Below are positions 58,571 to 62,623 of a stretch of 64,000 nucleotides of DNA, one piece after another. Location: assembly GCA_040754075.1 (NCBI GenBank), contig JBFMDH010000013.1:1-64000 (forward strand). The letters are read 5' to 3'. The position numbers were made by a program, and so were the translations under genes. A model generated the notes under the pieces. That model was given only the letters and a program-made list of their open reading frames with translations. It was not told the origin of the DNA and did not search any database. The number at the start of each line of letters is the position of its first letter. Position 1 is the stretch's first letter. The stretch is from Acidobacteriota bacterium (GTDB lineage: Bacteria > Acidobacteriota > Blastocatellia > UBA7656).

Positions 58571-59347
58571 TTATTCGCCACGGGCAATTCGACCGAGTGC
58601 GCCGCTTGGATGCCACTGAGCATATTGTTCGCGAGTCAACCCTTTATGCGTTTCGAGAGAAACCGATAATCCGCACAGGACAAAAATTTTGGCGAGGATG
58701 CTGGCGCGCGGAACTAAATTCAACGTGCCACCTTCATTTTCAACCCCGGCGTTTAAAACGACGGTTGACAGTTTAGCGAGATGCGATTCGGGTTGCCCCG
58801 ATACACAGATAATTTTCACGCCAAACTCTTTCAGGACTTCAACGGCATGTATTAGTTCAGGGGTTTCACCGCTATTTGAAATCGCAATTAACACGTCCTC
58901 TTTACGTACCTGCCCGGCTGAACCATGCACACATTCGGTGGCGTGTAAAAAATAGGCGGGGGTTCCGGTGCTTGAAAGTAATGAGGCGGCATACCGCGCG
59001 ACATGTTCGGATTTCCCGATTCCCGTAACGTGTACGCGCCCCCCAAAGGTTTCCTGATGGAGAATTAACTCCGCAGCTGTTTCAATGGAAACGAACTCTG
59101 CGCGGGTTCGCAATGCGGTCAGTTCATCAACCGCAAGGGTAAAAAAATTTTCAACTTCCAATGCCGCCCTGGATTGGTGATTTACCGCGGTAGTCTCAGA
59201 CAATTCCGACACCCCATTGGCAGTTTGCGGATGATTGTCTTCCGGTTGTTTGGCTATATCCTGGCTGTTTGTCAAACTGGTAGCTCTTTCGGTATCGTTG
59301 GAAACAATTACTGCTGCCAACCCTTTTCCCTCGCGCCTAATTGTCAT
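58571..59347 (-). CDS. SIS-domain sugar isomerase, arabinose-5-phosphate isomerase-like
   Basis: 258 residues. SIS fold: VHVTGIGKSEHVARYAASLLSSTGTPAYFLH, AISNSGETPELIHAVEVL, and the C-terminal catalytic-type HPSGALGRIARG, as in KdsD/KpsF. It lacks the two CBS domains normally following the SIS domain (328 residues in KdsD) and instead has an extra N-terminal part of about 75 residues rich in polar residues. Product would be D-arabinose 5-phosphate for KDO, by homology. Converges with YceI. Confidence 0.85.
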   Translation of the reverse strand: MTIRREGKGLAAVIVSNDTERATSLTNSQDIAKQPEDNHPQTANGVSELSETTAVNHQSRAALEVENFFTLAVDELTALRTRAEFVSIETAAELILHQETFGGRVHVTGIGKSEHVARYAASLLSSTGTPAYFLHATECVHGSAGQVRKEDVLIAISNSGETPELIHAVEVLKEFGVKIICVSGQPESHLAKLSTVVLNAGVENEGGTLNLVPRASILAKIFVLCGLSVSLETHKGLTREQYAQWHPSGALGRIARGE

Positions 59348-59498: not shown

Positions 59499-60635
59499 CT
59501 ATGGAGCAATCGCCAGCACCCTGACAGGGCTTCCCGACCCGCCTTCAATTGGTAAAGCGCCGACAAAAATCACCGCTCCACGCGCCGGTAATTTATCGAG
59601 ATTGGTCAGGTTTTCGAGGTGATAGAGTCCGCTTCCGTGAGAAATTTTATGCCCTTGAAAATTTTTTGAAGGACCGTAATCAATCGATAGCGTGTCGATT
59701 CCGAGTCCGACAATTTTAGGGTTGCGCAAAAGGTATTGAATGGCTTCTTCGGAAAAACCTGGAAAATGCATAACTCCGTTGGCATCGACGTTGCGGTATT
59801 TTTCAATATCATTGAATCGTTTGTCCCAACCGGTCAGCAGTAAAATAATCGCGCCTTCGGGAATCGCCCCGCCTTTTTCAAACTCCTGAATATCGGTTGC
59901 CGAGAGTTGATAATCGGGATTGGTTTCGACCTTTGAACGCGCGTCTATCACCACTGCCGGGGCAATAAATTTTTTAACCTTTATTCGCTCAACCGTTTCT
60001 TTCCAAACAATGAAATGACCGGGCGCATCCAGATGGGTTCCGAAATGTTCGGGCAGGCGAATTGCTCCACTGGCATACCCGTCTTTTTTAATGTCCGAAA
60101 GTTTTTCGTAACGATATAAATCTTTTTCGCCGCTAAAAGCAGGGGTTTTATCGCCGAGCAATTGGGTCAAATCGAGGATTTGCGCCTGACCTTTTAAAGC
60201 TCTTTCCAATAGCCCTTCCCCTGCGGTTGGCGCAGGTTTCGTTTCTTCGACAATCGGTTTCTCGCCGTTTTCATTGCGGATTGGAAAACTGCGAATATAG
60301 CGAACCAGATTTTTAACCTGTCCGGGATTGAGCGTTAATTTAAACGATGGCATTCCCCCTCGACCTTTGGTTATCGAAGCAATGAATCGCGCATCGGTTT
60401 TCCCTTTATGAAATGCCGGGTTGGTAAAATCAGGAACCCCATTTCCCCCCTTCCCGTCCGGTTTATGACAGATTGAACATTTCTTTAAAAAATCTGCGCT
60501 TGCCGCCACTTCATCATACGGTGAAGCGGTTGGCGAAGTCTTTTTCGATTTACTTTGCGTGGCAAACACCACGGTAACGACACCCATAAAAAACAGCAGC
60601 AACAAGGTTGTAACTTTCAATTTTCTAAACTGCAT
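59499..60635 (-). CDS. Exported cytochrome c - cyclase family fusion
   Basis: 378 residues, AGAGGTG before the ATG. Signal peptide (about 8-25), then a small class I-type cytochrome c domain with haem motif CSICH (53-57) and a probable axial Met95 (RGGMPSF). A Pro-rich linker (120-140) leads to a cyclase/kynurenine-formamidase-like domain with the metal motif HFGTHLDAPGH (His197, His201, Asp203, His207). Both domains look intact. It lies 14 bases after selB on the same strand, so they are co-transcribed. Substrate and the role of the haem are unknown. Confidence 0.85.
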   Translation of the reverse strand: MQFRKLKVTTLLLLFFMGVVTVVFATQSKSKKTSPTASPYDEVAASADFLKKCSICHKPDGKGGNGVPDFTNPAFHKGKTDARFIASITKGRGGMPSFKLTLNPGQVKNLVRYIRSFPIRNENGEKPIVEETKPAPTAGEGLLERALKGQAQILDLTQLLGDKTPAFSGEKDLYRYEKLSDIKKDGYASGAIRLPEHFGTHLDAPGHFIVWKETVERIKVKKFIAPAVVIDARSKVETNPDYQLSATDIQEFEKGGAIPEGAIILLLTGWDKRFNDIEKYRNVDANGVMHFPGFSEEAIQYLLRNPKIVGLGIDTLSIDYGPSKNFQGHKISHGSGLYHLENLTNLDKLPARGAVIFVGALPIEGGSGSPVRVLAIAP

Positions 60636-60649
60636 AACACCTCTTTGAT

Positions 60650-62623
60650 TTATAAAATTTCTCTCTCATTTCCGAGTCGACGGGTGACGCGCTCTCGATC
60701 CAGAAATTCAAGCAGGGGTATAGCATGTTTTCGTGATATTCCTCCGGTTATCTCTTTAAATGCGGCGACATCAATTTTTGTGCTTTTGGTTTTATATTCC
60801 CGAATCCGATTTTTCAAGTCTTCGATGATTTCCGAATGAAAGACAAAATCATCTATCCGAATCAAGCGTTTTTCAGCAAGCAGCAAGTTATATAATTTGC
60901 GCGCCAGGTTGGTTTGAATTTTCAATTGACCGGCAATTTCATCAAACGATGAGGCTTGAAATCCTGCCGCTTTGATTGCCATTTCAAGTTTATTTTTAAT
61001 CTCGCTGTCGGCGTTTGAAAGCGTTAGTTTATGCGATGATAAGCGTAAAACCTCGCGTTCAGCAGTGACTTTCCCTTGTTCGGATAAAAAGCCAATTACT
61101 GCGCGAAAAATTTCCGGTTGCAATTTTCCGAATAATTTTTCGCGAACCTCTTCACGTCCCATACCAAGCGATAAGGGTTCGCGTTTATGATGGGTTTCAA
61201 GTAAAGCGATGACCTGAGCAGCCAATTGTTCATAGTTGGTTTTGGAAATAAAAATTAAAGGTAAGGCAGAGACCTCGATGATTTGCTGCTTGTTTTTCAA
61301 CTCGCTTATCGATTCAAGGATTTGTTTATTGGTCGCGCCGGTTTTTGCTGCAATTTCACCAAAGGTCATTGCCTGTTCGCCTGCCATTTCAATAAAGGTG
61401 GCGATTTGTTCGGCAACACTCGTGGCATTTTCCAACTTAATTAAATGGTTTCGCGCCTGTGCATCATGTAATCGGTGCTTTTGTGGTAAAGCGTCTAAAA
61501 TCACCCCTCCACCAATGGTAATCTGGGGCGAATAACTGCGAATGATGAAGCGGTCTCCGGGCAGTGCGGCAATCGGTTCTTCAAGCCGCAATTGAGCGAA
61601 ATCACTTTTATTGGGTTCAAGGGCAAATTGTGGCTTATAGTTTTGCCAATTCGATTCTTCATCACGAGTTTCAGAAATCGGCGCAACCGATGAAGGATTT
61701 TTTATGAAATACACCCGCGCCATCACCTCTGCGGTTCCATGATGCAAGCGCACCCGCGCGCGGTGTGAGAGCGGTCTTGGGGCGCTGGCGAGCAAATTCA
61801 ATTTGACATCCAACATCGAAGACGATTGCAAACGATTCGCCAGGGTCAAGACATTTCCACGTTCGGCATGTTCGAGGTTGACGCCTTGCAAATTGACCGC
61901 CGTTCGTTGACCCGCTGAGGCAATATCGGTGTCTGCTCCATGTACCTGTAAATTGCGGATTCGGGTTTTTTCGCCAATCGGTAAAATCTCAATCTCATCT
62001 CCAACTTTGAATTCACCGGCAACCAGTGTACCGGTGACCACGGTTCCATAACCTTTAACCGTAAACGCGCGATCTATCGGCAATCTCGGAGTCGCCGAGG
62101 TATTTTTCGGTTGACTAGTTTTTGCCAAATCAAGCAACGCAGTTTTCAATTTATCGATTCCTGCGCCAGTTCGTGAACTGACGGAAATGATGGGCGAACT
62201 TTCAAGAAAAGACCCTTTGACATAATCTTCCACCTCGGCGCGGGCGAGTTCCAGCAACTCTTCATCAACCATATCGGCTTTGGTTAAAACGACCAGTCCG
62301 GTTTTGATTTTTAATAATTTGCAAATATCAAAATGCTCGCGGGTCTGTGGCATCACCGATTCGTCTGCGGCAATCACCAGCATCACCATATCCAATCCGT
62401 GTGCCCCGGCAAGCATATTTTTAACGAACCGTTCATGACCCGGCACATCGACAAACCCGAATTGATAATCATCCAAATGCAGGTCGGCAAATCCTATATC
62501 AATGGTGATGCCGCGCTGCTTTTCTTCTTTCAAACGGTCTGCATCAATCCCGGTTAAAGCTTTTACGAGAGCGGTTTTTCCGTGGTCAATATGTCCGGCT
62601 GTTCCGATGATAATGTGTTTCAT
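60650..62623 (-). CDS. selB: Selenocysteine-specific elongation factor
   Basis: 657 residues. EF-Tu-like GTPase with G1 [11 protein letters not shown]3 DVPGHE, G4 TKAD, followed by EF-Tu-like beta domains and C-terminal winged-helix domains ([14 protein letters not shown]...) that bind SECIS RNA. It carries Sec-tRNA to UGA codons with a SECIS element. The organism should therefore make selenoproteins; selA, selD and selC are not in this window, and no in-frame TGA selenoprotein was recognised here. Co-transcribed with the fusion gene downstream. Confidence 0.92.

Follow-up and report, generated by a model that had tools for sequence, protein, structure and literature searches.

A cytochrome c domain fused to a putatively exported cyclase-fold hydrolase in two genera of Acidobacteria

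The window analysed here, a stretch of 64,000 nucleotides from an Acidobacteriota contig, encodes on its minus strand (59499..60635) a protein in which a signal-peptide-like N-terminus, a cytochrome c domain, a linker and a cyclase-fold hydrolase follow one another in a single chain. The architecture is new, although both of its domains are well known; it arose once and is known from two carriers. The best explanation of the open reading frame, its Pfam profiles and its counterpart in a second genome is that the gene specifies a two-domain enzyme that is probably exported. It comprises 378 codons, with an ATG start and a stop within the span, and its coordinates, strand and length are exact. 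The first 26 residues (60558..60635, minus strand) belong to the N-terminus MQFRKLKVTTLLLLFFMGVVTVVFA, which by eye resembles a signal peptide, so that the secretion proposed in the original prediction is plausible. All of the features of the window described below lie on the same strand.

The cytochrome domain occupies residues 48-116 (60288..60494) and exceeds the curated cut-offs of PF13442 (residues 48-114, 42.5 bits against 27) and PF00034 (24.3 bits against 21.3). The haem attachment motif, CSICH, lies at C53-H57 (60465..60479), and Met95 in the sequence GGMPSF (60351..60353) is a candidate axial ligand that is present in both fusions; the domain thus has the CxxCH and distal Met, within a profile match, by which monohaem class I c-type cytochromes are recognised. 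A phmmer search matched it to a CcoP-type domain of a cbb3 subunit (E 6.5e-11) and to KustA0088, a small class I c-type cytochrome (E 3.6e-10). CxxCH and Met are common to the domain and to both of these matches, and among the matches examined none was fused to a PF04199 hydrolase. Modelling with AlphaFold gave the cytochrome a low confidence (pLDDT 59.5, from a two-sequence alignment) and was poor in both of the models made, because only two sequences were alignable; the top PDB matches of the model are cytochromes c, but with an E value of 0.4 at best. The same genome contains cytochrome c assembly proteins, with two genes over the PF01578 cut-off, and the domain would be expected to mature, and to be loaded with haem, outside the cytoplasm.

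The hydrolase domain (residues 149-378; 59502..60191) matches PF04199 over residues 155-319 with 124.9 bits, compared with a curated cut-off of 23.1. It contains the metal-binding and catalytic motif H197-x-G-T-H201-x-D203-x-P-x-H207 (60015..60047) and the second part of the metal site, H329 and E341 (59613..59651), so that H197, H201, D203, H207, H329 and E341 are all present. H197, T200, H201, D203, P205 and H207 are invariant in an alignment of 12 rows; in one of 43 rows the same is true save for H201, which is nearly invariant, and H329 and E341 are invariant as well. AlphaFold modelled this domain with confidence (pLDDT above 90 for the most part), and comparison of the model with PF04199 structures yields Z scores of 20.9-33.9. 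Profile, motif and cyclase fold therefore agree on membership of PF04199, and the earlier description of one chain with a CxxCH haem domain, a likely Met ligand and a complete HxGTHxDxPxH site was correct. Of the two domains that it had proposed to model, the hydrolase alone gave a confident result.

Among the structures listed, the closest is 8f9x from Ruegeria pomeroyi DSS-3, a cyclase-phosphotriesterase by its entry title (Z 33.9, rmsd 1.6, 225 residues aligned, 36% identity), which is also the best match in sequence (E 3.1e-42). Its aligned part, chain residues 47-272, corresponds to the hydrolase domain only, and it has GIEN where the fusion has HLEN, with the same Glu. Isatin hydrolases A and B (5nmp, 5nna, 4j0n and 4m8d) have the fold and HxGTHxDxPxH in common with the fusion, at 36-37% identity and Z scores of 31.8-32.0; their solved chains, of 257-265 residues, likewise consist of the hydrolase domain only. 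According to PMC6117287, the place taken in KynB by a conserved Glu lies within GLQC or GLAS in isatin hydrolases. In the fusion H339-L340-E341-N342 aligns to GLQC of 5nmp, placing E341 where isatin hydrolases have Gln or Ala and KynB has Glu, and by that signature, as it is given there, the protein is therefore not an isatin hydrolase. For KynB (4co9, 4cob and 4cog) PMC4243253 gives H50, H54, D56, H60, H161 and E173 as ligand or catalytic residues, and these six positions are alike in the fusion and have the same spacing, as judged by motif and spacing. Identity to KynB is, however, only 21-24% (Z 24.1), and the curated equivalog model TIGR03035 scores 52.6 bits, far under its cut-off of 223.05, so that by this model the protein is not KynB. 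The original label, kynurenine-formamidase-like, therefore survives for the fold and the metal ligands and fails for family membership, the nearest structures being 8f9x and the isatin hydrolases. PF04199 also includes metal-dependent esterases besides amidases, an example being MGS0169 (PMC5341072); there two of the motif His residues are Gln, whereas the motif of the fusion is complete. These likenesses suggest as substrate a small amide, imide, lactone, ester or phosphotriester, and Glu341 makes a KynB-like site, with possible room for two metals, more likely than the single-Mn site of isatin hydrolases.

The original prediction had proposed a search for the same two-domain order in other genomes, and it was found in a groundwater Acidobacteria MAG (G001, contig JACQDB010000118.1), with 72% identity over residues 5-378. 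Both domains of this second fusion likewise exceed the profile cut-offs, in one frame, and the gene order is that of the window: selB, the fusion, a gene for a KpsF-like SIS-domain protein and yceI. The two proteins are 65% identical in the cytochrome and 83% in the hydrolase; the linker (residues 121-142; 60210..60275) is poorly conserved, with 45% identity. Over the first 40 residues pN/pS is 0.49 and in the linker 0.39, against 0.26 in the cytochrome and 0.19 in the hydrolase; as dS, at 1.5 in the hydrolase, is saturated everywhere else, only the contrast among these values counts. The values for the two domains are lower than those for the linker and the N-terminus, from which it follows that both domains have been kept. 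Both domains are under purifying selection and the fusion is conserved across two genera.

The fusion is rare. In the class it was found in 2 of 162 genomes; 27 of these contain a match at 1e-45 or better, the level at which matches were listed with at most 12 candidates scored per genome, and in the other 25 the match covers the hydrolase only. In a draw of 297 genomes from the phylum the fusion appeared only in G000 (G001 was outside that draw), and in the 294 genomes of a Planctomycetota draw, the phylum of Candidatus Kuenenia hertensis, it appeared in none, the 28 genomes with a match at 1e-40, the threshold there, all lacking it; in both draws at most 6 candidates were scored per genome. 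With these thresholds a fusion bearing a diverged hydrolase could escape, and most of the genomes are drafts. Among 80 named loci, kept from 233 relatives, CxxCH occurs within the hydrolase chain once, in G001 (L069), and 49 further loci, partly the same as the named ones, yielded again only the G001 locus (L005). A plasmid search returned three records with coverage of at least 80%; the one examined, from Deinococcus sp. KNUC1210 (85% coverage), is really a 258-aa stand-alone cyclase gene. Among open-access papers on such a fusion or on exported cyclase-family proteins we found no description of it, which does not prove its absence from the literature.

A tree of the hydrolase domain (93 rows; ten loci of the pool were omitted, nine because they duplicate named loci and L068 because its open frame is artefactual) places the two fusions as sisters with support of 100/99. 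The next branch, with support of 99/97, is a protein of G003 (L070) that has no cytochrome. The placement as sister to rows from Melainabacteria, Cyanobacteria and Actinobacteria has a support of only 86/99, and the rows OWN_C36 and L067 form long branches. The G003 protein, the closest outgroup, consists of a signal peptide and the hydrolase only, with the sequence DDGLLERAL following the signal peptide; in the window protein the matching GEGLLERAL stands after the cytochrome and the linker. Because the outgroup has the signal peptide and hydrolase alone, we conclude that the cytochrome went in behind the signal peptide of a hydrolase that was already exported. A small stand-alone exported cytochrome encoded elsewhere in the same genome (contig C6) carries the same motifs, and stand-alone cytochromes of relatives match the domain at 32-46% identity; proteins of these kinds are plausible donors.

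The original prediction regarded the pairing as odd on the ground that cyclase-family enzymes are mostly cytoplasmic. For this clade that contrast does not hold. In 74 of the 80 named relatives a hydrophobic 10-mer (mean hydropathy of at least 1.8) is found in the 75 residues that precede the domain. The test is crude and is no signal-peptide prediction; in L129 the stretch must fall within an amidohydrolase domain. Six lack such a 10-mer: the G001 fusion, in which the signal is farther upstream; L094 and L109, in which the hydrolase is fused to another domain; and L082, L090 and L096. As far as hydropathy can indicate, the clade thus seems to be largely exported. In L109 (8261-10687) and L129 (4811-7288) Pfam identifies a PF04199 hydrolase fused C-terminally to an Amidohydro_3 (D-aminoacylase-like) domain, and L094 (7-1572), which ends at a contig end, has the same arrangement by eye. 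These exported amidohydrolase fusions belong to a different branch from the cytochrome fusion.

A same-strand CxxCH gene within 130 bp of the hydrolase was present at 3 of the 86 loci examined within 4 kb. In Candidatus Brocadia sp. AMX1 (L103, 8463-9824) a protein with eight CxxCH motifs, which matches the multihaem cytochrome family PF13447 with 112.7 bits (cut-off 21.9), is encoded 128 bp upstream of the hydrolase. In Candidatus Kuenenia hertensis (L113, 10739-12127) a homologue of this octahaem protein, also over the PF13447 cut-off, is encoded 12 bp downstream. The two proteins are 37% identical over 456 columns, and the pair stands in opposite order in the two genomes. The third case (L061, 2176-3567) comes from G177, of the Acidobacteria phylum, where an exported PF04199 hydrolase has, 24 bp upstream of it, a gene for an exported-looking protein of 463 aa with one CxxCH; this protein scores 28.9 bits with PF03712, the C-terminal domain of copper type II monooxygenases (cut-off 23), and 18.7 bits with the haem profile, below its cut-off of 27. 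Among 49 shorter loci there was one more redox neighbour, the start of which is the same as that of L103. Other CxxCH open reading frames within 4 kb of a hydrolase lie farther off; among them, the one in L126 is PDZ/thioredoxin-like, that in L130 is Tll0287-like and 2.5 kb away, and that in L107 has no family match. Two further candidate neighbours with CxxCH, one of 133 aa in L105 and one of 79 aa in L131, were rejected as other-frame reading frames overlapping the hydrolase.

Anammox genomes are rich in multihaem cytochromes, and the Brocadia and Kuenenia neighbours could therefore be due to chance. A tblastn search of the pool of 100 loci revealed no further homologues of this cytochrome, though the pool includes several more anammox loci. 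The 22 largest clusters of neighbours around 91 loci (9 duplicates dropped) include no recurring family that resembles a partner; they track the synteny of lineages, and several of their representatives look like wrong-frame reading frames. The three redox neighbours give modest support to a redox partner of the exported hydrolases. It had been argued originally that relatives with the two parts as separate genes would count against the prediction, and in a loose sense they exist: the same small cytochrome stands beside no relative examined, and another haem or redox gene does so at these three loci. Since such genes support a redox partnership, this finding does not refute it.

We tentatively propose, as a possibility that falls somewhat short of an even chance, that a tethered periplasmic hydrolase acts on the product of an oxidation for which the cytochrome is the electron acceptor; the coupling and the partner are both guesses. 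A separate periplasmic oxidoreductase would hand electrons to the cytochrome domain, which would pass them to the respiratory chain. With a metal-activated water the hydrolase domain would cleave some small substrate, whether an amide, an imide, a lactone, an ester or a phosphotriester, and, opening a lactone, imide or ester made by the oxidation, would pull the reaction forward. A broader version is distinctly more doubtful. It would have the fusion be a same-chain periplasmic module for oxidising and opening a substrate, with the same partnership existing as separate genes in relatives, with the octahaem cytochrome of anammox bacteria and the haem-copper monooxygenase-like protein of L061, so that the exported PF04199 clade as a whole would serve oxidative pathways. 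If the domains cooperate, a non-redox metal hydrolase would be wired to an electron carrier, and there would be a route to the substrate of the exported PF04199 clade in Acidobacteria and in Planctomycetota, including anammox bacteria.

The genes nearest to the fusion are selB, the SIS gene and yceI, with no oxidoreductase among them, and because of this coupling is only slightly more likely than a loose or neutral fusion. The cytochrome would then be a mere add-on, either docking or localising the hydrolase to the respiratory membrane or joined to it by chance and tolerated, and this is a serious possibility. The single origin in only two genera and the variable linker, together with the absence of an adjoining redox gene, are what such a history would leave. 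Against it, the cytochrome is under purifying selection, albeit with synonymous sites saturated, and has kept CxxCH and Met, while separate haem or redox genes adjoin three of the stand-alone relatives. Should the domains not cooperate, the fusion would be a recent domain insertion of little wider meaning. It is unlikely that the haem instead senses redox state or a gas and thereby controls the hydrolase. The presence of haem and a catalytic domain in one chain is consistent with a sensor, but the conserved Met in GGMP suggests a six-coordinate electron-transfer cytochrome and the poorly conserved linker speaks against tight allostery.

A further explanation, which is quite improbable, is that the fusion gene belongs to the selenium system, being expressed with selB and serving a selenoprotein or selenium metabolism. 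In its favour, the gene begins 14 bases (60636-60649) downstream of selB (60650..62623; TIGR00475, 383.8 bits, cut-off 242.25), as originally reported, and a comparison of neighbours shows that the order in G001 is alike, with the SIS gene (58571..59347 in the window) on the other side. The original prediction tied the gene to selenium by position only, and we agree; comparison within the family weakens the tie further. The hydrolase adjoins selB in just two of seven family genomes, with gaps of 14 and 182 bp, which does not amount to a conserved association with sel genes. G004 and G006 have selB, the SIS gene and yceI with no hydrolase between; G003 has the hydrolase and SIS genes together and selB elsewhere; and in G002 and G005 selB is elsewhere, lacking SIS and yceI in the stretches taken. 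The 182-bp gap of G001 holds an inverted repeat of the CGCCTAAAGGCG type (L049, 7888-8069) that is missing from the 14-bp gap of the window. There is no in-frame TGA in the fusion gene before its stop. Four separate contigs of its own genome carry selA, selB, tRNA-Sec and a selD that contains an in-frame TGA. A match to selB or selD stands beside the hydrolase at only 4 of the 80 named loci, in two branches, several of the loci ending at contig ends. In L119 and L120 the selB probe gave weak matches (36% over about 115 aa), which we attributed to other GTPases. The link to selB is best read as an insertion of the hydrolase gene between selB and the SIS gene, and the place of the fusion beside selB looks accidental. 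Neither selB nor the SIS gene is counted as part of the system.

A point for selenium comes from a distant branch of the exported hydrolases (support 100/99), separate from the fusion and not its sister. This lies directly downstream of selD in all six genomes having it at 1e-60, among 18 genomes of another Acidobacteria order; the 8 that combine high completeness with low contamination all lie outside these six. The loci are L092 (9131-10915), L115 (8178-9934) and L121 (8154-9934), and also L197-L201. The selD and hydrolase genes share 4 bases in L115 and L121, whereas 27 bp separate them in L092. The selD genes of this branch score 346-358 bits with TIGR00476 (cut-off 125). Those of L092, L115 and L121 contain an in-frame TGA (CAG-TGA-ASK), in the position usual for the active site, and probably encode selenoproteins. 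That a sel gene adjoins this hydrolase clade twice, in unconnected instances, may be coincidence.

The last alternative, that an assembly or annotation artefact joins two genes, has a negligible probability: nothing was found in its favour, the second genome carries the fusion in frame (72% identity) and purifying selection acts on both domains, and this excludes chance and makes a frameshift, which had been named at the outset as a possible undoing, or a joining error very unlikely. A split-gene reading, prompted by matches in G028, G098 and G192 that span both domains with stops, was rejected, since no CxxCH gene lies within 4 kb of the hydrolases there (L066, L067 and L062); in G192 the gene upstream of the hydrolase is selD. 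The genome that carries the window also has, on contig C5, a second exported-looking, lipoprotein-like cyclase-family paralogue (L185, 6563-8660); a same-strand gene for a dienelactone hydrolase (PF01738) stands upstream of it.
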